From: Salipiger bermudensis HTCC2601
Lineage (GTDB): Bacteria; Pseudomonadota; Alphaproteobacteria; Rhodobacterales; Rhodobacteraceae
DNA: 39,955 bases
Assembly (NCBI RefSeq): GCF_000153725.1
Contig: NZ_DS022276.1
Span: 103,909-143,863, forward strand
Direction: 5' to 3'
Made by a program: the position numbers and the translations under genes. Positions within the stretch are counted from its first letter, which is position 1. Every line of letters starts with the position of its first letter. Shown one piece after another: positions 2,662 through 16,710 of this stretch. The notes under the pieces were generated by a model. It saw only the letters and a program-made list of their open reading frames with translations, had not been told where the DNA came from and did no database searches.

Positions 2662-3607
2662 CGGCGCGGCGCGCCTGCCAGAGCTGGCGGGCGCTCTCGA
2701 GGGGCGCATTCTGACCCAGCGTGTCGAGCGCCAGCGCGGCGGTGCCCAGCACCACGGCCTCGGCGAAGGGATCGTCGCGCTCACCCGCCCAAAGCGCGCC
2801 GAGCAGCGCCGGATCGCTCTCGCCATCATCAAGGCGACGGGTGGCCTCGGGCAGCAGGGCAGGAAAGCTTGTCTCCCACGCGGCGCCCTCGCGCAGGCCG
2901 AAGCCGGCGATCGCCTTGGCTGGGTGACGTTCGAACTCGCCGCCGCCGCCCTTGATCACGGTGAGCGCGTCGAGCCCGAGAATGGCGCCCGCATCGGCCT
3001 GCAGCAGGCGATAGGGCGGGTGGAACACGCCCTGCACAGAGACGCTGGCCCGCGCCGGGTTGAGCATCCGGCAGACGGTGTTCACGCAGGAGCGCAGGTG
3101 CAGCACGTCGCGCAATCTCAGCAGGCGGAAGAGCGCCGCAGAAAGATGCTCGAGCGGCAGGTAGGCGATGCCGTGTTGCTCCATGAGAGTGGAGGCCTCG
3201 GTGGGCCCCTCGGCCACCGGGATGCCGGCGGCGGCGAGCCCGTTGCGCACCGCCGCGTCGGCGCCGTTCCAGCCATGCATCAGCACCGGGTGCCCGGCAT
3301 CGGCCACCAGCCGCGCCGAGAGCAGGAACCACGGCAGGCCGCGGGTGCGGCCGGCGGCATAGGAAGGCCAGTCGAGCGCCGGGCGGGGCAGGGCCGGAAG
3401 GCTCTGCTGCGCCGCATGCGCGAAGCCCGCGATCTCGTCGGCGGTCTCGCCCTTCATCCGCATCAGCATCAGGAGCGCGCCGATGGCATGGGGATCGGCC
3501 TCGCCCGAGAGCATGAGCTGCATCGCATCGACCGCTTCCTCGCGGCTGAGCGAGCGCGACCGTCCGGGGCCGCGCCCCAGCGTGCGGACATGGGCGCCAA
3601 GCGTCAT
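2645..3607 (-). CDS. Glycosyltransferase-family protein, TrpD2/YbiB-like (anthranilate phosphoribosyltransferase fold)
   Basis: The protein has 320 residues. An N-terminal helical domain (about 1-75, SREEAVDAMQLMLSG...AIGALLMLMRMKGET) matches the NP-III/TrpD N-domain. The catalytic-like domain has HGWNGAD at 111, a NPAR motif near 183 and the glycine run KGGGGEFERH at 219. TrpD2 proteins keep the TrpD fold but lack anthranilate phosphoribosyltransferase activity, and E. coli YbiB binds nucleic acids. The ATG overlaps the nasA stop (ATGA), so the gene is translationally coupled as the last member of the nitrate assimilation operon. Its role there is unknown. Confidence 0.8.
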   Translation of the reverse strand: MTLGAHVRTLGRGPGRSRSLSREEAVDAMQLMLSGEADPHAIGALLMLMRMKGETADEIAGFAHAAQQSLPALPRPALDWPSYAAGRTRGLPWFLLSARLVADAGHPVLMHGWNGADAAVRNGLAAAGIPVAEGPTEASTLMEQHGIAYLPLEHLSAALFRLLRLRDVLHLRSCVNTVCRMLNPARASVSVQGVFHPPYRLLQADAGAILGLDALTVIKGGGGEFERHPAKAIAGFGLREGAAWETSFPALLPEATRRLDDGESDPALLGALWAGERDDPFAEAVVLGTAALALDTLGQNAPLESARQLWQARRAVTASA

Positions 3608-6234
3608 TCCGCGGCCACCTTCGCCTGTGCCGCGGCGAGGATCGAGGCCAGCTCGGGCCGGCAGGAACCGCAATTGGTTCCCGCCTCCAGCGCCGCGCCG
3701 ATCTGTTCGACGCTGAGCAGCCCTTGCGTCTCGATGGCGGCGACGATGGTGTTGAGCCCGACATTGAAGCACGAGCACACCAGCGGGCCGGGATCGGGGC
3801 GGTCGGCGGGCGGCTGGCCGGTAAGGGCGTCGGGGGCCTCGGTGCCGGGCAGGGTGGCGAGGAAGTCGCGCTTGAGCGCCACCGGTTCGGGGCCGGCGAA
3901 GAGCGCCGCGATCAGCCGGTCGCCGTCGTGGAAGGCGATGCGGGCAACGCCGCGCCGGGCGTCGATCACGGTCTGGCAGGGCGCGTCGGGCAGGCCGAAG
4001 AGCGCGCGCGCCTCGGCCTCCCAGTCCTCGGGCTGGGCTGCGGCGGCCAGCTCGGCGCGCCAGCCCGCACGGGTGCAGGCGCGGGCCCAGTAATCGGCGG
4101 TGGGGGTGATCTCGGTGGCGGACACGGCATAGCCGTACCATGCCGCGTCGAAGCGTGCCACCGCCGTGGTGCTGGCCTTGCTCTCGGGCTGGCCCGAGAC
4201 CGGGTCGGTGTTGGCGGCGACCAGCGCGTCGATCCGGGCCGAGGGCGCGGTTTCGCCGGTCCAGTGCATCGGCGCAAACACGTCGCCCGGCGCCACCGCA
4301 TCGGTGATCCGCGCCCGCAGGATCGCCTTGCCCTGCGGGTTCTCGAGCCGCACCAGATCGGCGGGCGCGATGCCGAGGCGGCGCGCATCCTCGGGGTGGA
4401 TCTCGAGGAAGGGCTCTGCGAGATGGGCGGCCAGCCGCGGTGAGCGGGCGGTGCGGGTCATGGTATGCCACTGGTCGCGGATGCGCCCGGTGTTGAGCCG
4501 GAAGGGAAACTCGGTGCAGGGCTCGGACGCCGGGGGGCGATAGCGGATCGGCAGCATCCGGGCCTTGCCGTCGGGGTGGTAGAAACGCCCGTCGGCGAAG
4601 AAGCGGCCGCCGTTGCGGGTGGCGCTGGCAGGCCAGCGGAAGGGCGCCATCGCCATGTATGCGCTGTCGCTGAGCTCGGCCTTGGCGGAGATGTCGAAAT
4701 CGCGCCCGAGCGTGCCGGCAAGCCCTGAAAGGGCTGCGTATTCGCGGAAGATCTCGGCCGGGCAGGCATAGTCGAACGCCTCGCGCCAGCCCATGCGGCG
4801 GCCGACCTCGGCGAGGATCTCCCAGTCGGGCCGCGCCACGCCGGGCGCCGGCAGCGCGGCGCGCTGGCGGCTGATGGTGCGGTCGGAGTTGGTGACCGTG
4901 CCCTCCTTCTCGGCCCAGGCCGAGGCGGGCAGCAGCACATGGGCCAGCCGGGCGGTGTCGGTGGCGGCGGTGATGTCCGAGACCACGACGAAATCGCAAT
5001 CGGCGATCGCCTTGGTGACCGCATCGGCATCGGGCATGGTGACGGCGGGGTTGGTGTGGATGATCCACAGCGCCTTGATGCGGCCGTCGCCGGCGGCGCG
5101 GAACAGGTCCACCGCCTTGAGCCCCGGCGCGTCGGCCATGCGCGGGCTGTCCCAGAATTCATGCACCGCGGCGCGGTGGTCGGCGTTCTCGATGTCGAGG
5201 TGACAGGCCAGCATGTTGGCCAGCCCACCGACCTCGCGCCCGCCCATGGCGTTGGGCTGGCCGGTGATCGAGAACGGCCCGCAGCCGGGGGTGCCGATGC
5301 GGCCCGTGGCGAGGTGGCAGTTGAGGATGGCGTTGACCTTGTCGCTGCCCGAGGTGGACTGGTTCACGCCCTGCGAATAGACGGTGACCACCTTTCCGGT
5401 GCCGATCCAGAGCTTGTAGAACGCCGCGAGTTGCGCCTCCGACAGCCCGGTGACGGTGTCGCGGTCGCTCGAGGCGGCGATCAGCGCCTCGTTGAAGCCC
5501 TGCACGGTGGCGAGGAATTCCTTGTCGAGCGCGCCGGCCTCGTGGATGGCGCAGAGCAGCCCGTTGAACAGCGCCGCATCGGTGCCGGCCTTGAGCGCGA
5601 GATGCATGTCGGCGCCATCGCAGGAGGCGGTGCGGCGCGGGTCGATGACCACGAGCTTGGTGCCGCGCGCCTTCCGCGCCGCGAGGATGCGCTGGTAGAG
5701 CACCGGGTGGCACCACGCGAGGTTCGAGCCCACCAGCACGATCAGGTCGGCCTCCTCAAGATCCTCGTAGGTCCCGGGCACGGTGTCGGTGCCGAAGGCG
5801 CGGCGGTGGCCGGCCACCGACGACGCCATGCAGAGCCGCGAGTTGGTGTCGATATTGGCGGCGCCGACATAGCCCTTCATCAGCTTGTTGGCGACGTAGT
5901 AATCCTCGGTCAGCAGTTGGCCGGAGACGTAGAAGCCCACGCTCTCCGGCCCGTGCTGCTCGATGGTCTCGCGAAAGCGCTGGGCGACGAGATCGAGCGC
6001 CTCGTCCCAGTTCGCCTCGCGGCCGTGCACGCGGGGAGAGAGCAGGCGCCCTTCCAGCCCCACGGTCTCGCCAAGGGCCGAGCCCTTGGAGCAGAGCTTT
6101 CCGAAATTCGCCGGGTGCTCCGGGTCGCCCCGTACCGTCAGCCCGCCCTGGCCGTCGGCCAGCAGGCGCACCCCGCATCCCACCCCGCAATAGGGGCAGG
6201 TCGAACAGATCTCGGAAACGCCCTGGTCTTTCAT
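3604..6234 (-). CDS. nasA: Assimilatory nitrate reductase catalytic subunit NasA
   Basis: The product is an 876-residue molybdopterin oxidoreductase reducing nitrate to nitrite in the cytoplasm. The N-terminal [4Fe-4S] motif uses Cys13, Cys16 and Cys20 (CPYCGVGC) plus a later Cys in KLCSKG. NSRLCMASS carries the probable Mo-ligand cysteine, and the C-terminal third has the molydopterin-dinucleotide-binding fold. The C-terminus adds a BFD-like [2Fe-2S] domain (CSCFNVG...CGSCRPEL), typical of assimilatory rather than periplasmic enzymes. There is no Tat signal. The ATG at 6234 overlaps the nirD stop by one base (TGATG); an in-frame GTG at 6237 is the alternative start. Confidence 0.95.
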   Translation of the reverse strand: MKDQGVSEICSTCPYCGVGCGVRLLADGQGGLTVRGDPEHPANFGKLCSKGSALGETVGLEGRLLSPRVHGREANWDEALDLVAQRFRETIEQHGPESVGFYVSGQLLTEDYYVANKLMKGYVGAANIDTNSRLCMASSVAGHRRAFGTDTVPGTYEDLEEADLIVLVGSNLAWCHPVLYQRILAARKARGTKLVVIDPRRTASCDGADMHLALKAGTDAALFNGLLCAIHEAGALDKEFLATVQGFNEALIAASSDRDTVTGLSEAQLAAFYKLWIGTGKVVTVYSQGVNQSTSGSDKVNAILNCHLATGRIGTPGCGPFSITGQPNAMGGREVGGLANMLACHLDIENADHRAAVHEFWDSPRMADAPGLKAVDLFRAAGDGRIKALWIIHTNPAVTMPDADAVTKAIADCDFVVVSDITAATDTARLAHVLLPASAWAEKEGTVTNSDRTISRQRAALPAPGVARPDWEILAEVGRRMGWREAFDYACPAEIFREYAALSGLAGTLGRDFDISAKAELSDSAYMAMAPFRWPASATRNGGRFFADGRFYHPDGKARMLPIRYRPPASEPCTEFPFRLNTGRIRDQWHTMTRTARSPRLAAHLAEPFLEIHPEDARRLGIAPADLVRLENPQGKAILRARITDAVAPGDVFAPMHWTGETAPSARIDALVAANTDPVSGQPESKASTTAVARFDAAWYGYAVSATEITPTADYWARACTRAGWRAELAAAAQPEDWEAEARALFGLPDAPCQTVIDARRGVARIAFHDGDRLIAALFAGPEPVALKRDFLATLPGTEAPDALTGQPPADRPDPGPLVCSCFNVGLNTIVAAIETQGLLSVEQIGAALEAGTNCGSCRPELASILAAAQAKVAAE

Positions 6235-6566
6235 CACGCCGCACTCCGCCGGGAGACCGCCGCGCCGTCGAGCAGGATGCGCCCGTCCTCGAGCCGTACC
6301 GGGTAGGTGTCGATGCGGCCCTCGTCGGCGCCCTGCGCCTCGCCGGTGTTGAGGTCGAACACCCAGTTGTGCAGCGGGCAGGTGACCTTCTGGCCGTGCA
6401 CGATGCCCTCCGAGAGCGGGCCCTGCTTGTGCGGGCAGGTGTTCGAGGCGGCAAACACCTCGGCGGTGTCGGTGCGGAAGATCGCCACGCAGCCGACCTC
6501 CGTCCTGACCAGCCGGGCGCCGCGCAGCGGCACGTCGTCGATATGTCCGATGTCGATCCAGCTCAT
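6234..6566 (-). CDS. nirD: Nitrite reductase small subunit NirD (Rieske-type)
   Basis: This 110-residue protein has a Rieske-like motif pair, CPHKQGPLSEG and CPLHNWVFDL, providing two Cys and two His positions for a [2Fe-2S] cluster. It starts MSWIDIGH, the usual NirD start, and the length is normal. NirD partners NirB in the NAD(P)H-dependent reduction of nitrite to ammonium. It lies between nirB (73-base gap holding a perfect hairpin) and nasA (one-base overlap). Confidence 0.93.
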   Translation of the reverse strand: MSWIDIGHIDDVPLRGARLVRTEVGCVAIFRTDTAEVFAASNTCPHKQGPLSEGIVHGQKVTCPLHNWVFDLNTGEAQGADEGRIDTYPVRLEDGRILLDGAAVSRRSAA

Positions 6567-6595
6567 TGGCCTGTCTCCGCTTGCGAGATGGGGGA

Positions 6596-6618
6596 GCCGC
6601 CCCGAAGGCCGGGGCGGC
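6596..6618 (-). other. Intercistronic hairpin between nirB and nirD
   Basis: A perfect 9-bp inverted repeat (GCCGCCCCG / CGGGGCGGC) has a 5-base loop. It is the main feature of the 73-base gap and has no T-tract. It may stabilise or process the operon mRNA (inference). Confidence 0.5.
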
Positions 6619-6639
6619 AATCTTGGCGAGGGGCGGCGC

Positions 6640-9071
6640 TCATTCCGCCGCCTTCAGGGTGAGGTCGGCAAGCGGCTGGAAGCGGCGCGCGGCCTCCGGC
6701 TCTGCCCGCTCCGCCCAGGGATCGGTCTGGTAGACGCTTTGCGAGACGTCGAAACGCTCGACCAGCGCCCGGCGCTCGGTCTCGTCGGAGAGCACCTCCT
6801 TGACCCAGTCGAGCCCGACCTTGGCGACCCACTTGTAGGGCCGGTCGAGATACTTGGCGTGCTCGCGGTAGAGCTGCACGAAGGCGGTGGTCCACTCGAT
6901 CGCCGCCTCTTCGGTGGGCACGTCGACGAGGCGTTCGGTCTCTTTCACGTCCATGCCGGCGGCACCGGCGACGCCGATCTGGTAGCCGCTGTCGACGCAG
7001 ATGATGCCGACATCCTTGCAGGTCGCTTCGGCGCAGTTGCGCGGGCAGCCCGAGACGCCGAGCTTGACCTTGTGCGGCGTCCACGACCCCCAGAGCTTCT
7101 TCTCGAGCTTGATGCCGAGCCCGGTGCTGTCCTGCGTGCCGAAGCGGCACCAGTCGGAGCCGACGCAGGTCTTCACCGTGCGCAGACCCTTGGTATAGGC
7201 GTGGCCCGAGACCATGCCGGCCTCGTTGAGATCGTGCCAGATCGCCGGCAGATCCTCTTTCTTGACGCCCAGAAGGTCGATGCGCTGGCCGCCGGTGACC
7301 TTGACGGTGGCGCCGTATTTCTCCGCCGCCTGCGCGATGGCGATCAGCTCCTGCGGGGTGGTCATGCCGCCCCACATGCGCGGCATCACGCTATAGGTGC
7401 CGTCCTTCTGGATGTTGGCGTGGTTGCGCTCGTTGACGAAGCGGCTTTGCGGATCGTCGGTATAGTCGAGCGGCCAGTCCGCCAGCAGGTAGAAGTTGAT
7501 CGCCGGGCGGCAGACATGGCAGCCATTGCGGGTCTTCCAGCCCAGCTCCTGCCAGACCGCCTCCTGCGATTTCAGCTCCTGCGCCTTGATCAGGCGGCGC
7601 ACGTCCTCATGGGTGAGGTCGGTGCAGCCGCAGACCGGCTGCGCCGTGGGCAGCACGAACTCGTCGCCCAGCGTGACCGAGAGCACCTGCTCGACGAGCC
7701 CGGTGCAGGTGCCGCACGACGCGCTGGCCTTGGTGGTGGCCTTGATCGCCCCGAGATCGGTGGCGCCGCCTTCGATGGCGGCCACGATATCGCCCTTGCA
7801 TACGCCGTTGCAGCCGCAGATCTCCGCCTCAGGCGGCAATGCTGCAACGGCTGACAGAGGGTCCGCGGATGCACCCCCCTGATAGGACGGCCCGAAGATC
7901 AGCGTCTCGCGCATCTCCGAGATGTCTGTGCCATCCTTGATCAGCCCGAAGAACCAGTTGCCGTCGGCGGTGTCGCCATACATCACCGCGCCGACCAGCT
8001 TGTCCTCCTCGATCACGAGGCGCTTGTAGATGCCTCGGGCGGGGTCACGATAGACGATGTCCTCGCGACCCGGGCCGTCGGCGAAATCGCCCGCCGAGAA
8101 CAGGTCGCAGCCGGTGACCTTGAGCTTGGTCGAGAGCTCGCGCATGGCGAAGGTCTCTTCTTCGCCGAGCAGCGTCTTGGCCAGAACCTTGGCCTGATCG
8201 TAGAGCGGTGCCACGAGGCCGAAGAGGTTGCCCTCATACTCGACGCATTCGCCCACGGCAAAGACATCCGGCGTCTCGGTGCGCATCTGCGCGTCGACCT
8301 TGATGGCGCGGCCGCAGGCGATGCCGCTGTCCTGCGCCAGCTTCACCGCCGGGCGGATGCCCACCGCCATGCAGACGATGTCGCAGGGCAGCTCGGTGCC
8401 GTCGGCGAGGTTGACCTGCTCGGCCTTGCCGTTGCCCACGATCTCCTTGGTCGAGGCTTCGAGCAGCACGGTGATGCCGCGGCGCTCGAGATCCTTCTTC
8501 AGCAGGTAGCCCGCCGCCGGATCGAGCTGGCGCTCCATCAGGTGCGAGGCGATGTGCAGCACCGTGACCTCCATGCCGCGCAGCCGCAGCGCCGCCGCCG
8601 CCTCGAGCCCGAGCAGGCCGCCACCGATGACCACGGCCTTGGAGCCGGGTTTGCCGGCGGCCTCGGTCATCGCGGTGGTGTCCTCGAGGTCGCGGAAGGC
8701 CACGACGCCGGGCAGGTCATGGCCGGGGCAGGGAATGATGAAGGCCGAGGACCCGGTGCCGAAGACCAGCTTGTCATAGGCCACTTCGCCCTTCTCGCCG
8801 ACCACGACCTTGCGCGCGGTATCGACGCTCAGGACCTTTTCGCCGAACCGGCAGGCGACCTTGTGGCGCCGTACCAGTCGTCATCATGGGTGACGATCTC
8901 GGCAAAGCTCTTTTCGCCCGAGAGCACTGGCGAGAGCATGATGCGGTTGTAGTTGCCGCGCGGTTCGGCGTTGAAGAGCGTGATCTCGAAGGCGCCGGGA
9001 TCGGCGTCGAGCAGGTGTTCGAGCAGTCGGCCAGAGGCCATGCCTGCTCCGATGACGACGAGTTTCTGCAT
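6640..9071 (-). pseudogene. nirB: Nitrite reductase [NAD(P)H] large subunit NirB, single-base frameshift as read
   Basis: Two abutting frames together encode NirB. The first runs from ATG 9071 (MQKLVVIGAGMASGRLLEHLL) and goes off frame after DDDWY. The second carries RHKVACRFGEKVLSVDT onward to the stop at 6640. Inserting one base near 8870 gives 810 residues, a normal NirB length. The second part has a GGGLLGLEA dinucleotide site (about residue 150), a BFD [2Fe-2S] motif (CGCNGVCKGD...CGTC, about 419-456), a second BFD-like repeat, and the siroheme/[4Fe-4S] motif CVGSDWC...GCPRNC (about 636-680). The enzyme reduces nitrite to ammonium. All other residues look intact, so a recent mutation or a base-calling error is equally possible. 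Confidence 0.85.
8866..8874 (-). other. Frameshift site in nirB (one base missing)
   Basis: On the coding strand, TGG TAC is followed by GGCGCCACAAG. One more C (TAC CGG CGC CAC AAG) would read WYRRHK and join the two nirB frames. As read, the frame ends at a TGA near 8829 after 17 out-of-frame codons. Confidence 0.8.
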
Positions 9072-9085
9072 CTCTGCGGCTCCTC

Positions 9086-10027
9086 TCAGACGTACCATGC
9101 GACGATGTGGGCGATCTCGCCCGCATCAAAGATCGGCAGGGCGACGAGGGTTTCGTAACCCTCGGTGAGGCCCGGCTTGCCGGTGACGATCAACGGCAGG
9201 CCGGTGGCGAGCACCTTGCCGATATTGCCCTGGTTGGCGTTGACCCGGCGCGGCGGCTCCTGCGTGTCGTCGGTCCAGAGCGGGCCCTCGCGCTCGCAGA
9301 TGCCGTCGGCGAGGATCGCGGCGATCTCGCGGCCGACCTTGACCGGGCGCGAGTCCCAGATCTCGAAACGGCGCGCGATCGGCGTGCCGCGGGCCGAGAG
9401 CAGGGTGAGCACGAAGCTCTTGTCCTGCGGCACCGGGATCGGCAGGCCGAGCCCGGTGGTCAGCCCCGCCTTGCCGGCGCTGTCGGCGCGGATGAAGCGG
9501 TAGCCGGAGCCGAGATCGCGGAACAGCATCGGCGTGCTGGCCGACCAGACGCCCCCCGGCAGGCCCTGGCCGCGCGGGAAATGCGTGTGCTGGGAGACCC
9601 ATTCGAAATGCTTGGCGGCGCCATAATAGCCATCATCCAGCATCAAGAGACCGTCTTCCTCGTGCCAGACCTCGATGGCGCCGGTGCGGTTTTCATCATC
9701 ACCGCAGAGCACCACGAGAACCGCCTTGAGCTGGGCGTCGTTGAACACCGGGATTGCCACTGCCGAGGTCAGCCCGGCTTCGGCGGCGGCCTCGATGCGC
9801 TTGAAATACGAGCCGTCGAAGCCCTTGAGCACCACCGGGCGCTCCTCGGCCCAGGCCTTGCCCGGCAGGCCTTCGCCCTTGGCGAAGCTGATCGCGCGGG
9901 TGGCCTCCTCGAAGGCCGAAAGCGCGCCGTAGTTGCCCGTGGCGAGGACCAGCCGGTCCCCCTCGGGCACCCAGATCTCGGTGACCTGGATGAAGGTCTT
10001 CACGGGTGCGTCAAGAACGGTGTCCAT
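9086..10027 (-). CDS. Tandem GAF-domain protein of the nitrate assimilation operon
   Basis: The product has 313 residues, no signal peptide and no output domain. It is built of internal repeats. FAKGEGLPGKAW, AGLTSAVAIPV and GAIEVW in the first half recur as FPRGQGLPGGVW, AGLTTGLGLPI and RRFEIW in the second. A shorter third copy ends the protein (GLPLIVTGKPGLTEGYETLVALPIF). This fits two GAF folds plus a partial third. GAF domains sense small ligands, nitrogen oxides or redox state. The position between nrtD and nirB suggests nitrate/nitrite sensing or a non-catalytic role, but no function can be read directly. The ATG at 10027 follows a strong AAGGGGG. Confidence 0.8.
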   Translation of the reverse strand: MDTVLDAPVKTFIQVTEIWVPEGDRLVLATGNYGALSAFEEATRAISFAKGEGLPGKAWAEERPVVLKGFDGSYFKRIEAAAEAGLTSAVAIPVFNDAQLKAVLVVLCGDDENRTGAIEVWHEEDGLLMLDDGYYGAAKHFEWVSQHTHFPRGQGLPGGVWSASTPMLFRDLGSGYRFIRADSAGKAGLTTGLGLPIPVPQDKSFVLTLLSARGTPIARRFEIWDSRPVKVGREIAAILADGICEREGPLWTDDTQEPPRRVNANQGNIGKVLATGLPLIVTGKPGLTEGYETLVALPIFDAGEIAHIVAWYV

Positions 10028-10095
10028 GATCGTGCCCCCTTGTCCTAGAGGTTTGCATCTGTCGCGCCCCGGCATCACGCGGGAGCGCCTGCCTT

Positions 10096-11793
10096 TCAGG
10101 CGGCTTTCTTCTTCTTCTCGGTCTTGGCCTCGGACTTGCCGTGTTTGCCGTGCTCGTACTCCTCGAGGAAGTTCAGCACCTGCTCGCGGTAGAGGTAGTA
10201 ATCCGGGTGCTCGAGCAGCGCCTTGCGGGTGCGGGGGCGGGGCAGGTCGACATCGACGATCTTGCCGATGGTGGCCTGCGGGCCGTTGGTCATCATCACC
10301 ACGCGGTCGGCCAGCAGGATCGCCTCGTCGACATCGTGGGTGACGCAGATCGCGGTCACCTTGGTGCGTGACCAGACCTCCATCAGCACCTCCTGCAACT
10401 CCCAGCGGGTGAGGCTGTCGAGCATCCCGAAGGGCTCGTCGAGCAGCAGCAGCTTGGGCGAGAGGGCAAAGGCGCGGGCGATGCCGACGCGCTGCTTCAT
10501 GCCGTTCGACATGTCGGCAGCACCCTTGTCCATCGCATCGGCGAGGCCGACGCGCTCGAGATAGTACTCGACCACCTCCTGGCGCTCGGCCTGGGAGGCC
10601 TTGGGATAGACCTTGTCGACCCCGATGGCGCAGTTCTCGCGGGCGGTGAGCCACGGGAACAGGTTGGGCGACTGGAACACCACCGCACGCTCGGGGTCGG
10701 CGCCCTCGACATGGCGGCCATCAAGACGGATGCCGCCCTTGGAGATGCTGTTGAGGCCGGCTGCCATGGTCAGCACGGTGGACTTGCCGCAGCCCGAATG
10801 GCCGATCAGCGAGATGAACTCGCCCTTGTTGACCTTGAGGTTGAAGTCCTCGACCACCGTGAGCGGGCCCTTGGGGGTGGGGTAGATCTTGTGCAGCTGC
10901 GAGAAGTCGAGGAAGCGCTCCTCGATCATGCCTTCCTGCGCCTTGGCGACCGCTGCCGGAACGTCTGCCGCGATGCCGTGGATCGGGGTCACGTCGGGCA
11001 GGTTGCGGCTGCCCTCGGTCTTGGCCTCGATGCCCACGTCCATCAGGTAGGTGGTGACCTCGGCGCGCAGGCGCTTGAAGGTCTCGTCATGGTTCATCTC
11101 GCCACGATCGCGCGGGCGCGGAATGCTCACCGGGAACTCGGTGCCGAGCGTGCCGTCGGGGTTCAGCGCGATGATGCGGTCGGCCAGCATGATCGCCTCG
11201 TCGACATCGTTGGTGATCAGCACGCAGGTCTTCTTGTCCTGCTCCCAGATCTGCTCGATCTCGTCGGCGAGATTGGCGCGGGTCAGCGCGTCGAGCGCCG
11301 AGAGCGGCTCGTCGAGCAGCAGCACTTCGGGGCTCATGGCCAGCGCGCGGGCGACGTTGACGCGCTGGCGCATGCCGCCCGAGAGCTCGGCCGGACGCCG
11401 CGTGGTGGCGTGGCTGAGCCCGACCATCTTGACGTACTTGGCGACGGTGGCCTCCTTCTCGGCCTTGGGCATCTTGGGGAAGACGCTGTCGAGCGCGAGC
11501 TGCACGTTGCCGTTCACCGTGAGCCACGGCATCAGCGAATAGTTCTGGAAGATCACGCCGCGCTCGGGGCCGGGGCCCTCGATCTCGGCGCCCTTGAAGG
11601 TGACGCGGCCCTTGGAGGGCTTTTCGAGCCCGGCCATCAGGTTGATCAGCGTGGTCTTGCCGCTGCCGGAGAAGCCCAGGAGCACGAGGAACTCGCCCTC
11701 CCGGACCTCGAGGTCGATGCCTTTCAGCACATCGGTCTTGTGGGTGCCTTCGCCGAAGCTTTTCGAGACGTTTTCGAACTTGAGAATGCTCAT
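10096..11793 (-). CDS. nrtD: Nitrate/nitrite ABC transporter ATPase, two fused nucleotide-binding domains
   Basis: The protein has 565 residues and carries two complete ABC ATPase domains. The first has Walker A GFSGSGKT (40-47), signature LSGGMRQRV and Walker B LLLDEP. The second has GHSGCGKS (about 335), signature MSNGMKQRV and LLLDEP. A linker of about 50 residues joins them, and a Lys-rich tail (EKKKKAA) ends the protein. In cyanobacteria, NrtC (ATPase plus NrtA-like domain) and NrtD (ATPase) supply the two domains; here a single polypeptide supplies both and no NrtC-type solute-binding domain is present. It energises NrtB. The start follows AAGGAC with normal spacing. Confidence 0.92.
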   Translation of the reverse strand: MSILKFENVSKSFGEGTHKTDVLKGIDLEVREGEFLVLLGFSGSGKTTLINLMAGLEKPSKGRVTFKGAEIEGPGPERGVIFQNYSLMPWLTVNGNVQLALDSVFPKMPKAEKEATVAKYVKMVGLSHATTRRPAELSGGMRQRVNVARALAMSPEVLLLDEPLSALDALTRANLADEIEQIWEQDKKTCVLITNDVDEAIMLADRIIALNPDGTLGTEFPVSIPRPRDRGEMNHDETFKRLRAEVTTYLMDVGIEAKTEGSRNLPDVTPIHGIAADVPAAVAKAQEGMIEERFLDFSQLHKIYPTPKGPLTVVEDFNLKVNKGEFISLIGHSGCGKSTVLTMAAGLNSISKGGIRLDGRHVEGADPERAVVFQSPNLFPWLTARENCAIGVDKVYPKASQAERQEVVEYYLERVGLADAMDKGAADMSNGMKQRVGIARAFALSPKLLLLDEPFGMLDSLTRWELQEVLMEVWSRTKVTAICVTHDVDEAILLADRVVMMTNGPQATIGKIVDVDLPRPRTRKALLEHPDYYLYREQVLNFLEEYEHGKHGKSEAKTEKKKKAA

Positions 11794-11929: not shown

Positions 11930-13012
11930 TCAGCGGTTGTTCGAGAAGGTGAAGAGCGATTGCAGGGCGAACATCACGCGATCGAGCAGGAAGCCGATGA
12001 TGCCGATGGTGAACACCGCGACCATGATCTTGGCGAGCGACGAGGAGGAGCCGTTCTGGAACTCGTCCCAGACGAACTTTCCGAGGCCGGGGTTCTGGGC
12101 CAGCATCTCGGCGGCGATCAGCACCATCCAGCCAACCCCGAGCGACAGGCGCAGGCCGGTGAAGATCAGCGGCAGGGCCGAGGGCAGCACCAGCTTGGTG
12201 ATCTTGGTCCAGGTGTTCATCTTGAGCACCTTGGAGACGTTGACCAGATCCTTGTCGATCGAGGCCACGCCGAGCGCGGTGTTGATCAGGGTCGGCCACA
12301 GCGAGCACAGCGTCACGGTGATCGCCGAGATCAGGAAGGACTTGGAGAACAGCCCGTCATTGGTGGCCACCGCGGCGGAGATGATCATCGTCACGATGGG
12401 CAGCCAGGCCAGCGGCGAGACCGGCTTGAAGATCTGCACAAGCGGGTTGATGGCCGAGTTGGCGTAAGGAGAGAGGCCGGCGAGAATGCCCAGAGGGATC
12501 GCCACGCAGGAGCCGATCAGGAAGCCGAAGAACACCGTCTTGATCGAGGTCCAGATCTGCTCGTAATAGCTCGGCGCGCCGGTATAGGCGATGTCCTTGA
12601 CCTGGTCGGCCTTGCCCGCGGCGATGAGCTTCTCGTTGCGCGCCGCCACCATGGTCTCGAACTTGGCCTTCTTGGCGGCCTTGGCCTGCGCGTCCTCGTG
12701 CAGGAGCACCGCCTCGTGCCAGACCTGCGCCGGACCCGGGACCGCGCCGAGCGAGGTCTGCACCTTGGGCGCCAGCGTGCCCCAGAGCAGCAGGAAGCCC
12801 GCGATGGCCAGAAGCGGCACGCCCAGCAGCAGCCAGATGTCCTTCATCTGGGCCTTGGGGTTGTCGCCGGCGGCGGCTTTCAGGATCGGGGTGATCCATG
12901 CGAGGCCGAGGACGCGGAACCAGGCGTCGGCCTTGTTGATGCGGGTGAAGAGGCGCGCCCGGCGGGCTTCGCGCTCGGCCTCACGGGCGTAGTCTGGATC
13001 GACGGTTGTCAT
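11930..13012 (-). CDS. nrtB: Nitrate/nitrite ABC transporter permease NrtB
   Basis: This 360-residue inner-membrane permease belongs to the NrtB/SsuC/TauC family. The first membrane helix is at about 58-80 (IWLLLGVPLLAIAGFLLLW). It is followed by a charged helical stretch at 110-140 and then the transport core. The ATPase-contacting EAA-like loop is TKITKLVLPSALPLIFTGLR. The start MTTVDPDY is preceded by GAGGA. A longer in-frame upstream extension is proline- and arginine-rich and is rejected. The gene lies between nrtA and nrtD in the operon. Confidence 0.93.
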   Translation of the reverse strand: MTTVDPDYAREAEREARRARLFTRINKADAWFRVLGLAWITPILKAAAGDNPKAQMKDIWLLLGVPLLAIAGFLLLWGTLAPKVQTSLGAVPGPAQVWHEAVLLHEDAQAKAAKKAKFETMVAARNEKLIAAGKADQVKDIAYTGAPSYYEQIWTSIKTVFFGFLIGSCVAIPLGILAGLSPYANSAINPLVQIFKPVSPLAWLPIVTMIISAAVATNDGLFSKSFLISAITVTLCSLWPTLINTALGVASIDKDLVNVSKVLKMNTWTKITKLVLPSALPLIFTGLRLSLGVGWMVLIAAEMLAQNPGLGKFVWDEFQNGSSSSLAKIMVAVFTIGIIGFLLDRVMFALQSLFTFSNNR

Positions 13013-13210: not shown

Positions 13211-14572
13211 TCAGCCCTGGATCTCGTTGCCCACGACCTTCTGCTCACCTTTCAGGCCGATCGGCAGGCTCTCGAGATAGCCGTTGGGGGTGCGGCCGTC
13301 ATAGGGGATGCCGTCGATGATGTCGGCAGCCGGGGTCGCGTCCTTGTAGCCGTCGCTGTCCCAGGGGAAATCAGCCTCGTTGGCGAGACCCTCGTCGACC
13401 AGCGCGCGAGCGGCCTCGAGGTAGATCTCGGGCTTGTAGACCGACTTGGCGACCTCGTCGTACCAGCTATCCGGCTTGGCCTCGGCGATCTGGCCCCAGC
13501 GGCGCATCTGGGTCAGGTACCAGACCGCGTCGGAGTAGAACGGGTAGGTGGCGTTGTAGCGGAAGAACACGTTGAAGTCGGGAACCTCGCGCTTGTCGCC
13601 CTTCTCGTATTCGAAGGTGCCGGTCATCGAGTTGGCGATCACCTCGGCATCGGCGCCCACGTATTCCGGCTGCGACAGCATCTCGACCGCTTCCATGCGG
13701 TTGGCGTTGTCGTTCTCGTCAAGCCACATGGCGGCGCGGATCAGCGCCTTGACCACGGCCTTGGTGGTGTTGGGGTTCTCTTCCGCGAAATCGGCGGTGA
13801 TGCCGAAGACCTTCTCGGGGTTGTTCTTCCAGAGCTCGTAATCGGTGATCACCGGCACGCCGATGCCCTTGAACACCGCCGCCTGGTTCCACGGCTCACC
13901 GACGCAGTAGCCGTAGATCGTGCCGGCCTCGAGGGTGGCGGGCATCTGCGGCGGCGGGGTGACCGAGAGCAGAACATCGGCGCCGATCTGGCCGGTGACG
14001 TTCTCGGGCGAGTAGTAGCCGGGCTCGAGACCACCGGCGGCGAGCCAGTAGCGCAGCTCGTAATTGTGGGTCGAGACCGGGAACACCATACCCATGTTGA
14101 AGGGCTTGCCCTCGGAGCGGTACTTCTCGACCACCGGCGCCAGCGCCTCGGCCGAGATCGGGTGCTGCGGAAGGCCGTCTTCGTTGGTCGGGATGTTGGG
14201 CTTCATCTCTTCCCAGACGGCATTGCTGACGGTGATGCCGTTGCCGTTCAGATCCATCGAGAAGGGCGTGATGATATGCGCCTCGGTGCCGTAGCCGATG
14301 GTGGCGGCGAGCGGCTGCCCGGCCAGCATGTGGGCGCCGTCGAGCTGGCCGCCGATCACGCCGTCGAGCAGAACCTTCCAGTTGGCCTGTGCCTCGAGCG
14401 TCACGAACAGTCCCTCGTCGAGGAAGTAGCCCTGCTCGTAGGCCACCGCGAGCGGCGCCATGTCGGTCAGCTTGATGAAGCCGAAGGTCAGTTCATCCTT
14501 TTCGAGATCCTGCGCGAGCAGGGGAGAGGAGAGCGCCGTGGTGGCGGTAAGTGCGAGGAGAAGGTTCTTCAT
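13211..14572 (-). CDS. nrtA: Nitrate/nitrite ABC transporter substrate-binding protein NrtA
   Basis: The 453-residue precursor has a signal peptide ([21 protein letters not shown], likely cut before Asp) and no lipobox cysteine, so it should be soluble and periplasmic. Family blocks are [40 protein letters not shown] and [13 protein letters not shown], which resemble the NrtA nitrate pocket and recur in NasS nearby. It is the first gene of the nrtABD-GAF-nirBD-nasA operon. Its 172-base leader carries the NasT-type RNA elements. Start: ATG after GGGACGG; an upstream in-frame extension is not signal-like. Confidence 0.94.
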
Positions 14573-14595
14573 TCGTCCGTTCCGTCCCTTGGAGA

Positions 14596-14617
14596 TGCCC
14601 GGTGAAACGCCCGGGCA
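14596..14617 (-). other. Leader hairpin close to the nrtA ribosome-binding region
   Basis: A perfect 7-bp stem (TGCCCGG / CCGGGCA) with an 8-base loop lies between the leader terminator and the nrtA start. It may protect the antiterminated mRNA (inference). Confidence 0.4.
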
Positions 14618-14624
14618 GAAAAAC

Positions 14625-14680
14625 AAAAAAAGCCGCCGACTGATCGCGACTCTGGAGGAGGTCGCGGCAGTCGAGCGGCT
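14625..14680 (-). terminator. Intrinsic terminator in the nrtA leader (attenuator)
   Basis: On the minus strand AGCCGC-tc-GACT-gc-CGCGAC pairs with GTCGCG-atc-AGTC-g-GCGGCT around a 10-base loop and is followed by seven Ts. It sits upstream of nrtA, so it should stop transcription unless prevented. Its 5' arm overlaps the P2 hairpin. Confidence 0.85.
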
Positions 14681-14739
14681 TTGCTCGGATATCCCAAACG
14701 CTGGGAGAATTTCGGGAGCGGCGCGCCATTGCGCTGCTC
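14672..14739 (-). promoter_or_regulatory. ANTAR-type dual-hairpin leader RNA (NasT target)
   Basis: P1 (14716-14739): GAGC-a-GCGC, loop AATGGC, GCGC-c-GCTC. P2 (14672-14687): CGAGC, loop AAAGCC, GCTCG. Both loops have six bases with A at position 1 and G at position 4, the hallmark of ANTAR-bound antitermination RNAs. The linker is 28 bases. P2 shares bases with the 5' arm of the following terminator, so the two are mutually exclusive. The adjacent gene nasT encodes the matching ANTAR protein. Confidence 0.85.
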
Positions 14740-14748
14740 GTGACCCTT

Positions 14749-14853: not shown

Positions 14854-16029
14854 TCAGTGCGCCGAGGGCTCGAAAATGCGGCCATCGAAGAACGAATCCG
14901 GCCCGAGGAAGAGCCGTCCCGATGTCGAGGCCACGGCGGTCTCCTCCGAGAGCGCGCCCTCCATCTTCGACGAAGCGCCGGGCAGCTCGGCCCGGGTCGG
15001 CGCCAGCGCCTCGCGGAAGAGGTCGCTGCGGAACACCGCGCGCGCGGCACGCGCCGCGGTGGGCCGGTCGAGCCCGGTGCGCGCGGCGAGCTGCAACCCG
15101 ATCCACTCCGCCTGGCTGCGCCACGGGAAGGTGGCGGCGCCGTGGTGGAACTCGACGAAGCCCGGCACGTGGCGCTCCTCGCCCTGGGCCGAGATCACCA
15201 GCCGGCCGTTCAGCGCCCGGTCGAGGATCTCGGCCGGCAGGTCGAGATATTCCTTGCGGCTGAGCAGCTCGGCAGCAAGCGTCGGCGATCCGGGCTCGGC
15301 CAGCCAGCGCCCGGCGCGCCAGACCGCGCGGATCAACCGGCCCAGCAGGTCAGGCTCGGCGCTCGCCCAGTCGCTGCGCACCGCCAGCACCTTCTCGGGG
15401 GCGAAGCGCCAGATCGCGCTGCCAGGCAGCAGCAGCGTGCCGACGCCGTTCTCCACCGCGATCGAGCCCCAGGGCTCGCCGACGCAGAAGGCGTCGATCT
15501 CGCCGGCCTGCATGGCATCGGCCATCAGCGAGGGCGGCACGGTGCGGATGTCGACGCTCTGCGGGGCCGGCAGCCCCAGCGCCGAGAGCCAGTAGTAGAG
15601 CAGCTCCGCATGCATCGAGAACGGGAAGGGCACGCCCAGGCGCAGCGGCTGGTCGGCTACGGCGATCAGCGCCTCGCCGGCGGTGCGGGCATCATTGAAG
15701 GCGAAGTCGTGGCCATGTTCGCGCAGCCGTGCGGCCAGCGCGTTGCTCACCCCGATGACATTGCCGTTCACGCCCAGCACCGAGACCGCCGAGAGCGCCG
15801 TGCCGGTTCCACCGAGCCCCAGCGCCGACGCCACAGGGACCGGCGAGAGCATGTGCGCCGCCTCGACCCGGCCGAAGCTCAGCATGTCGCGCACCGACGA
15901 CCACGATGGCGCCCGGCGCAGCTCGAGCGCGATGCTCTCCTCGGCGGCAAAGCCCATTTCATGCGCCACGATCAGCGGCGCGGCATCGATCAGGGGCAGG
16001 AAACCCACGGACAGGGTCGCAGCGATCAT
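14854..16029 (-). CDS. nasS: NasS, cytoplasmic nitrate/nitrite sensor
   Basis: This 391-residue protein is homologous to NrtA (LPLIDAAPLIVAHEMGF, VEAAHMLSPVPVA, DAFCVGEPWGSIA) but has no signal peptide, so it should stay in the cytoplasm. In the NasS/NasT system, NasS binds and holds NasT when nitrate is absent, and nitrate or nitrite releases it. The ATG overlaps the nasT stop (ATGA), so the two are coupled. The gene ends 281 bases upstream of nrtA. Confidence 0.92.
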   Translation of the reverse strand: MIAATLSVGFLPLIDAAPLIVAHEMGFAAEESIALELRRAPSWSSVRDMLSFGRVEAAHMLSPVPVASALGLGGTGTALSAVSVLGVNGNVIGVSNALAARLREHGHDFAFNDARTAGEALIAVADQPLRLGVPFPFSMHAELLYYWLSALGLPAPQSVDIRTVPPSLMADAMQAGEIDAFCVGEPWGSIAVENGVGTLLLPGSAIWRFAPEKVLAVRSDWASAEPDLLGRLIRAVWRAGRWLAEPGSPTLAAELLSRKEYLDLPAEILDRALNGRLVISAQGEERHVPGFVEFHHGAATFPWRSQAEWIGLQLAARTGLDRPTAARAARAVFRSDLFREALAPTRAELPGASSKMEGALSEETAVASTSGRLFLGPDSFFDGRIFEPSAH

Positions 16030-16610
16030 CCCAGAAGCCCCGCCGCCGTCACCAGCGCCGCGGCCACCTCGGCCACGCGCTTGCCCTGATCCATCGCGGT
16101 CTTGCGCAGCAGCGCATAGGCCTCGTCCTCATCGACCCCGCGCGCCTTCATCAGCATACCCTTGGCGCGGTCGATCATCTTGCGCTCTTCCAATGCGCGC
16201 TTGGTTTCGGCCAACTCGGTGCGCATCCGCTGGAACATGCGAAAGCGCGCGATGGCGGCGTCCATGATCGGCTTCACCCGCTGCGGTTTCATGCCATCGA
16301 CCACGTAGGCCGAAACGCCCGCCTCGATGGCGGTGTCGGTCAGTCCCTCGCCGTCGCGGTCGACGAACATCGCCACGGGCCGGTCGAGCGGCCCTGAGGC
16401 CAGCGCGAGCTCTTCGAGCGTGTCGCGCGACGGGCTTTCCACGTCGATCAGCACCACGTCCGGGCTCAGCGCCTGGATCTTGCGGGCGAGGCCAGTGGGC
16501 TCGGAGATGACGTGAATGTCGTAGCTGCCCGCATCCCGCAGGCTGTCCACGATGAGAATGGCGCGGTCGCGGTCAGGCTCGACCACGACGATGGAGAGGG
16601 AGGCACTCAT
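16026..16610 (-). CDS. nasT: NasT, ANTAR-domain antiterminator response regulator
   Basis: The product has 194 residues: a receiver-like domain (about 4-120; candidate aspartate Asp56 in VVLIDVESP) and a C-terminal ANTAR domain (about 130-190; LEERKMIDRAKGMLMKARG...EAYALLRKTAM). ANTAR domains bind paired hexaloop hairpins and prevent terminator formation, and such an RNA lies just upstream of nrtA. The start MSASLSIVVVEPD follows a purine-rich stretch. A longer open frame extends upstream but is not conserved-looking and covers the divergent gene. Confidence 0.94.
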   Translation of the reverse strand: MSASLSIVVVEPDRDRAILIVDSLRDAGSYDIHVISEPTGLARKIQALSPDVVLIDVESPSRDTLEELALASGPLDRPVAMFVDRDGEGLTDTAIEAGVSAYVVDGMKPQRVKPIMDAAIARFRMFQRMRTELAETKRALEERKMIDRAKGMLMKARGVDEDEAYALLRKTAMDQGKRVAEVAAALVTAAGLLG

Positions 16611-16710
16611 GGGCTCAGGAACAGCAGCGTTGTGGTGGGAAGTAAAGCTGGCCGATGGGGGTGGTGCCCTCGAAAAAGGCGCTTTGCCCGTTTTCTGGGC
16701 GGTGGTCCCT

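Follow-up and report, generated by a model that had tools for sequence, protein, structure and literature searches.

In the closest described systems, an ANTAR protein acts on a pair of hairpins set close together in a leader RNA. In the eutP target of EutV from Enterococcus faecalis, the two loops start 24 nucleotides (nt) apart (A29 and A53), and the linkers of the eut targets measure 5-12 nt; cutting the linker to 3 nt or stretching it to 14 nt makes induction drastically lower, and adding 20 nt abolishes antitermination in vitro (PMC3369931, PMC8934654). The structure of EutV led to the argument that the dimer is in contact with only a single hexaloop at any moment and has to move on to the next within a tight distance (PMC8934654), and a survey of actinobacterial ANTAR targets reported linkers of 2-25 nt (PMC8164766). 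NasT has been classed among these two-hairpin systems (PMC7496416); in Paracoccus denitrificans, NasT, released by nitrate, binds the nasA leader (PMC3795266). Here we analyse the leader of nrtA in a 39,955-nt stretch of the genome of Salipiger bermudensis HTCC2601 (contig NZ_DS022276.1, positions 103,909 to 143,863; hereafter the window, with positions counted from its first letter). In the gap between nasS and nrtA on the minus strand, three hairpins, P1, a middle hairpin (Pm) and P2, are followed by a terminator in the order of transcription. This leader very probably acts as an on/off switch of transcription, operated by NasT that nitrate has released. The best explanation of the data, to which we assign a probability of roughly 0.72, is a nitrate-responsive NasS-NasT attenuator with three hairpins in series, along which NasT would be relayed, and with a second copy before cobA in the same genome.

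A preliminary description of this locus, made from the sequence, had claimed two ANTAR hairpins with the loops AATGGC and AAAGCC, 28 bases apart, competing with a seven-T terminator upstream of nrtA. Both hairpins are present at that site. P1 spans 14739-14716 on the minus strand (GAGC-A-GCGC[AATGGC]GCGC-C-GCTC, with one A.C mismatch), its loop AATGGC lying at 14730-14725, and P2 spans 14687-14672 on the same strand (CGAGC[AAAGCC]GCTCG, loop 14682-14677); each has a six-base loop whose first base is A and whose fourth is G (A1/G4). The predicted intrinsic terminator (14682-14625, minus strand) likewise shares bases with P2: its hairpin, at about 14682-14629, absorbs the loop and 3' arm of P2 before running into U7 at 14631-14625. 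The reading as an attenuator in competition with a terminator is thus upheld, but the word 'dual', with its plain 28-base linker, is not. The 28 nt from P1 to the 5-base-pair stem of P2 contain Pm (14706-14692, minus strand; TCCC[AGCGTTT]GGGA), which appears in the minimum-free-energy fold of the nascent RNA and is conserved in relatives. In the window its loop is of 7 nt with A1 and G4, or of 5 nt if the A-U pair closes.

The leader folds with a z-score of -3.95 relative to shuffled sequences, none of 200 being as good. Cut off just after P2, the RNA adopts P1, Pm and P2 without any constraint (-27.0 kcal/mol). Once it extends through the U-run, the terminator (-54.2 kcal/mol) is more stable than a three-hairpin structure that has to be enforced (-43.9 kcal/mol), the behaviour expected of an attenuator with default termination. 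The last hairpin, P2, and the terminator are mutually exclusive, being alternative folds of shared bases. This overlap is general: across the 65 sites matched by R1, a covariance model of P1 and P2 in which the linker is left unpaired, the P2 loop or arm pairs with the stretch leading into the T-run (at least seven pairs, G-U allowed) in 60, as against a mean of 5.8 and a maximum of 12 when the downstream letters are shuffled; under strict Watson-Crick pairing the overlap is found at 44 of the 65. A scan of both strands of the window for an A1/G4 hexaloop hairpin overlapping a terminator, with another A1/G4 hexaloop upstream, returned this single site, and 40 order-1 Markov windows yielded two. 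That a strong terminator does occupy the nasS-nrtA gap would be equally expected of a plain terminator of nasTS, flanked by fortuitous hairpins and free of NasT control. Such a reading is nonetheless very improbable, as it does not predict the recurrent overlap with an A1/G4 hairpin, the covariation of P1, the rarity of the arrangement by chance or the cobA copy, which stands without nasTS. Chance hairpins are likewise ruled out by the excess of A1/G4 loops in independently chosen leaders (see below), by the shuffles and by the simulated windows.

The preliminary description had proposed conservation of the A1/G4 loops in orthologous leaders as a check on its claim, and this conservation is borne out. 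Of 61 genomes, 29 have an nrtA orthologue, counting the genome of the window, and the leaders of 25 of the 29 were aligned (L026, L028, L029 and L030 were left out). Among 19 leaders, eight of the nine pairs of the P1 stem have changed on both sides while the loop kept A1 and G4; P2 is nearly invariant, with its inner three pairs invariant, and also keeps its loop. For the three helices together, the covariation score is 0.403 against 0.153 in shuffled alignments, none of 500 reaching as high. More broadly, the 65 R1 matches lie in 60 of the 196 genomes of the order; nrtA stands downstream of 59 of these sites, 58 of which have nasS or nasT upstream as well, while three sites precede cobA and three a cysG-like gene.

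Of 95 leader sources, R1 aligned 91, all but L028, L029, L180 and L181; 19 of these 91 had served to build the model. A hairpin is present in the linker of 84 of the 91, and in 59 the middle loop opens with a purine (A or G) and has G as its fourth base (purine-1/G4), the loop being of seven bases in 40, six in 14 and eight in five. With one site per genus, the middle hairpin is found in 42 of 44 representatives (300 linker shuffles: mean 13.3, maximum 23) and the purine-1/G4 middle loop in 28 of 44 (shuffles: mean 1.07, maximum 5). The R1-aligned counts lean towards Pm, as the linker columns of R1 hold the consensus of its seed.

Since R1 carries these consensus letters, leaders chosen without it were tested. 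Among the 196 genomes of the order, 103 are nasS-positive; 57 of these also have an R1 match somewhere and 46 have none. The latter, together with one genome whose match lies elsewhere (G214), provide 47 regions downstream of nasS, 40 of which form the R1-independent set. In these 40 leaders, A1/G4 hexaloops average 2.05 per leader, against a mean of 0.167 for the 15 other letter pairs; the highest of those is GG at 0.50, antisense A1/G4 loops stand at 0.42, and no comparable peak appears for A1/G4 loops of five, seven or eight bases. At least three A1/G4 hexaloops are found in 14 of the 40 leaders (300 shuffles: mean 0.01, maximum 1), and the spacings of consecutive loops fall at 20-30 nt and at 46 nt or more, with none at 31-45. 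A second set, of 80 leaders from named records chosen by NrtA (80 kept of 588 matches), gives 1.86 A1/G4 hexaloops per leader against 0.17, and 0.44 seven-base A1/G4 loops against 0.15. P1 and P2 were automatically recognised in 48 of these 80 leaders, the other 32 being set aside for want of a recognised P2 (19) or P1 (13); 44 of the 48 have the middle hairpin and 31 the purine-1/G4 loop in it. A series of three strict A1/G4 hexaloops is present in 10 of the 40 nasS-chosen and eight of the 80 NrtA-chosen leaders, as compared with means of 0 and 0.01 over 100 shuffles and with none on the antisense strand of either set; one genome is probably in both sets (L280, L215). Examples of such series come from Meridianimarinicoccus roseus (L241), Cognatishimia maritima (L282) and Rhodobacter maris (L296), and Rhodobacter sp. 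CZR27 (L182) has the loops AACGGC, AAGGAC and AATGAC, the last on a 3-base-pair stem. The strict middle hairpins comprise 16 distinct versions, with several pair types at stem pairs 2-5. As a separate observation, one leader (L193) possibly has four purine-1/G4 hairpins in a row before the terminator.

The switch had been described as standing upstream of nrtA; it does so, but it is not confined to that gene. The genome of the window has a second R1 site (E 6.8e-10; the next match is at 0.65) on the minus strand at G000:C6:2346154-2346219 (L034), in the leader of cobA (TIGR01469, 244.5 bits; TP_methylase) and without nasTS alongside. A cobA-side switch just upstream of cobA is present in nine of 20 genomes of the genus, a count that leaves out one ambiguous case (L331), one match inside a cobA-like gene (L332) and three weaker matches (E 0.02-0.04). 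In seven of the nine, the middle hairpin is a strict hexaloop of the form TCCCG[AANGNC]CGGGA, in which loop positions 3 and 5 alone vary; in the remaining two (L328 and L330) it is not a strict hexaloop. In other genera of the family, R1 matches lie upstream of a cysG-like gene, identified through NAD_binding_7 by Pfam in L094 and L095 and by similar sequence in L106. CobA makes precorrin-2, the precursor of siroheme, and siroheme is the cofactor of NirB. The cobA-side copy would put siroheme synthesis under the same signal as the nrt-nir-nas genes, and we infer that NasT controls cobA as well, which would widen the NasT regulon to siroheme cofactor genes. No separate cobA attenuator was found in the passages searched of the papers cited here.

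These elements suggest the following course of events, in which the release of NasT by nitrate, its RNA binding and antitermination are carried over by analogy from other systems. By default, the nascent RNA would fold P1, Pm and P2 in turn; as the polymerase advances, the P2 loop and 3' arm would be drawn into the strong terminator, and transcription would stop before nrtA. With nitrate or nitrite present, NasS would free NasT, whose ANTAR domain would hold the A1/G4 hairpins and keep P2 from the terminator, so that the nrt-nir-nas operon is transcribed. The median distance from the P1 loop to the P2 loop is 48 nt (range 38-55), divided by Pm into steps of 28 nt (P1 to Pm) and 20 nt (Pm to P2). 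The 28-nt linker exceeds the short linkers of the dual ANTAR motif (5-12 nt in E. faecalis eut, 2-25 nt in actinobacteria); with Pm counted as a hairpin, the linkers become 9 and 4 nt and fall within the short-linker range step by step. As steps of about 28 and 20 nt are near the 24 nt of EutV, and a direct 48 nt would be too far, NasT could cover the distance in two moves by way of a middle site. Pm, a conserved element, may thus serve as a stepping stone, NasT being handed from P1 to Pm to P2 as each hairpin emerges. If so, the switch works over a span at which an ANTAR target with two hairpins should fail. We advance only tentatively, at somewhat less than even odds, the wider proposal that antitermination by ANTAR proteins can proceed along successive hairpins in steps of about 20-28 nt and that the same switch coordinates siroheme synthesis (cobA or a cysG-like gene) with nitrite reductase.

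Besides the lean of the R1-aligned counts, several observations weigh against the relay. The window's own Pm has a loop of 7 (or 5) nt rather than the hexaloop that ANTAR domains prefer; no pair of the Pm stem has changed on both sides among the 19 leaders; and the purine-1/G4 middle loop is missing from 32 of the 91 R1-aligned sites (seven of them devoid of any middle hairpin) and from 17 of the 48 recognised NrtA-chosen leaders. Pairs 1-4 of the 16 strict middle hairpins were demanded by the search, so that the outer pairs alone are a free test, and pairs 5, 6 and 7 are paired in 13, 9 and 6 of the 16, just slightly above the means for shuffled partners (8.4, 6.7 and 5.8). Elsewhere, several leaders of other families have a close pair only, three (L157, L159 and L171) have a P1-P2 gap of 46-49 nt with no clear middle hairpin, and R1 failed to recover the leaders of P. 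denitrificans and P. marcusii. In P. denitrificans, mutation of the hairpin HII has little effect under nitrate (PMC5424462), which fits HII as part of the attenuating structure and lends the relay no help. Finally, sequence and comparison establish for the Salipiger leader the trio of hairpins, the bases that P2 shares with the terminator, their conservation, the surrounding genes and the copy at cobA, whereas NasT binding, a short terminated transcript and a nitrate response would follow by analogy with P. denitrificans and other systems (PMC3795266, PMC5424462).

Much of this would also suit an ordinary dual-hairpin NasT attenuator in which Pm is only a passive spacer, its fold taking up 15 nt and so bringing P1 and P2 close. 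A spacer of this kind accounts for a long linker that works, and agrees with the lack of a true hexaloop in the window's Pm, of covariation in its stem and of purine-1/G4 in a third of the sites. Yet it predicts free letters in the loop, against which stand the purine-1/G4 loops kept in the genus representatives far above the one or so expected from shuffles, the strict A1/G4 middle hexaloops on different stems in several lineages and the near-fixed hexaloop of the cobA leaders. On balance, we hold the passive spacer to be unlikely, if a serious competitor, and prefer the three-hairpin relay.

The division of labour among the hairpins could also be drawn otherwise, with Pm and P2, their loops about 20 nt apart, forming the working EutV-like pair and P1 being auxiliary or redundant. 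Close pairs 18-24 nt apart in other families (L143, L146, L151, L152, L153, L164 and L175) speak for this, but the strong covariation of P1 speaks against it, as do the experiments on P. denitrificans, where a three-base change in the hairpin HI severely lowers reporter activity and its chromosomal replacement abolishes growth on nitrate (PMC5424462). The leader of another P. denitrificans strain (L180, unannotated) has its first and last loops 155 and 107 nt before the presumed nasA ATG, 48 apart, and the positions published for the nasA leader are 137 and 91, 46 apart. Judged by approximate position and across strains, HI probably corresponds to P1 and HII to the last hairpin in L180. If HI is P1, the hairpins downstream of P1 are insufficient in P. 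denitrificans. We consider the reading with an auxiliary or redundant P1 improbable. Between the first and last hairpins, L180 has a short hairpin, CGC[AATGAT]GCG, left unnamed in the available part of the P. denitrificans account; its last loop is GACGAT (G1), and a T-run of five or more is absent from that leader.

Across the class, R1 matched in only five of 385 genomes, two of them in the window's family, and leaders outside the family were therefore sought through the NasT protein. It is present in 38 of 289 genomes, whose 38 loci were scanned for hexaloop clusters. A sense-strand cluster with a T-run nearby was found at 17 of the 38 loci, as compared with antisense clusters at two (L161 and L162); in these two, a close hexaloop pair and T-run lie opposite the nasT strand and are possibly leaders of opposite-strand genes. 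Clusters of three members were seen outside the family in L163, L168, L170 and L154, the last being discounted as no matching terminator was seen by eye. In the stretches examined of plasmid records from Sinorhizobium meliloti (L183) and Phyllobacterium (L184), A1/G4 hairpins of at least four pairs are absent. Inspection by eye also revealed sequences of the form TGGCAC...TTGC or TGC, which we take to be sigma-54-like, shortly upstream of the first hairpin in L151, L152, L153, L157, L163, L167, L168 and L175; none was seen by eye in the window.

The genes around the window's leader, all on the minus strand, fit a role in nitrate and nitrite assimilation. As the preliminary description had it, nasT and nasS lie immediately upstream, and the order nasS, leader, nrtA recurs in relatives. 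The nasT frame (16026..16622; first ATG at about 16610, start uncertain) encodes a receiver-like domain and a C-terminal ANTAR domain (PF03861, E 6.5e-21), and its product aligns at 47-65% identity with seven alphaproteobacterial relatives; nasS (14854..16029), whose start overlaps the end of nasT, encodes a nitrate/nitrite-sensor-like NMT1_2 protein (PF13379, E 9.8e-63). The first gene behind the leader is nrtA (13211..14572; PF13379, E 8.8e-95), with the ATG at 14572-14570 and the ribosome-binding sequence AAGGGACGG just upstream. It is followed by genes for an nrtB-like permease (11930..13012; TIGR01183, E 1.2e-45, under its cut-off), an nrtC/D-like double ATP-binding protein (10096..11793; TIGR01184, 595.5 bits) and a GAF-domain protein (9086..10090; PF13185, E 1.5e-12; start uncertain, the listed frame being 9086-10654). 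Then come nirB (6640..8805; TIGR02374, 803.4 bits), nirD (6234..6620; TIGR02378, 99.2 bits) and the catalytic subunit of an assimilatory nitrate reductase of the nasA/nasC type (3604..6237; PF00384, PF01568, PF04879 and PF04324; E 1.1e-126 against the NasC model, under its cut-off). Two features of this operon deserve mention: the GAF-domain protein, which has no NCBIfam match at E 0.001, sits between nrtD and nirB, and the open frame of nirB lacks the first 93 or so profile positions, beginning at about position 94 of the NirB model, so that the N-terminus is maybe in another frame or misread.

A search of the genome with the ANTAR model found one gene besides nasT, an AmiR-like gene with an AmiR_N domain, and the leader might in principle be read by this protein instead of NasT. 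We regard this as hardly credible: 58 of the 65 R1 sites stand beside nasS or nasT, and the gene itself lies about 2.8 Mb off, at G000:C6:2876504-2876659 on the plus strand (L002), next to what reads as an AmiC-like binding protein and ABC permeases. Control by the AmiR-like protein is thus disfavoured by its gene neighbourhood.

Other features of the leader region may be noted beside the switch. A further GC-rich hairpin, TGCCCGGGCGTTTCACCGGGCA (14596-14617, minus strand), follows the terminator and precedes the nrtA ribosome-binding site. Inspected by eye, leaders of the same genus have analogous hairpins with other stem letters that change together; it might serve for 5' end protection or as a second pause. 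In one minimum-free-energy fold, the linker letters CUCCC pair with the ribosome-binding site. A weak candidate promoter, TTGATC-18-CATAGA (14777-14772 and 14753-14748, minus strand), was picked by eye from partly conserved blocks and might place the transcript start at about the foot of P1. A consensus scan of the window listed neither a promoter nor a terminator at the nrtA leader, the simple terminator scan presumably missing the latter because its stem is interrupted, and Rfam gave no match at gathering threshold for any part of the window.

Set against the described systems, a NasS/NasT-controlled attenuator as such is best read as one of a known kind. No three-hairpin ANTAR leader was found in the passages searched of the papers cited here; searches that presuppose two hairpins and a short linker may overlook or misinterpret them. 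A naturally extended, roughly evenly spaced target would put the moving model of ANTAR proteins to a direct test. The EutV target resembles the Salipiger leader in its A1/G4 hexaloop hairpins, the last of them embedded in a terminator, but has two hairpins 24 nt apart, whereas the window's leader has 48 nt from the P1 loop to the P2 loop and Pm in between. NasR of Klebsiella, acting at nasF, shares nitrate-controlled ANTAR attenuation of assimilation genes on a P1P2 target, but is a one-component sensor with two hairpins (PMC7496416). P. denitrificans comes close in having nasT-nasS upstream of a leader with hairpins (HI and HII), but the available account describes two hairpins, and the gene behind its leader is nasA, not nrtA.

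The regulon offers further parallels. In Bradyrhizobium diazoefficiens, as is proposed for Salipiger, NasT has more than one leader target in the genome, nosR being shown and hairpins being predicted at coxS, nirA, narK and bjgb; cobA, cysG and siroheme go unnamed in the main text of that paper, a reference title aside (PMC6759348). In Pseudomonas, NasT antitermination of the nitrite reductase operon at the nirBD leader (NalA) is a likeness to the present system (PMC12830290). The grouping of the siroheme gene with nitrite reductase has a counterpart there as well. In P. aeruginosa, cobA is reportedly part of the nirBD operon, going by the title of a 2012 study. In P. aeruginosa, cobA would then lie within the operon, whereas in Salipiger it stands behind a separate copy of the switch.

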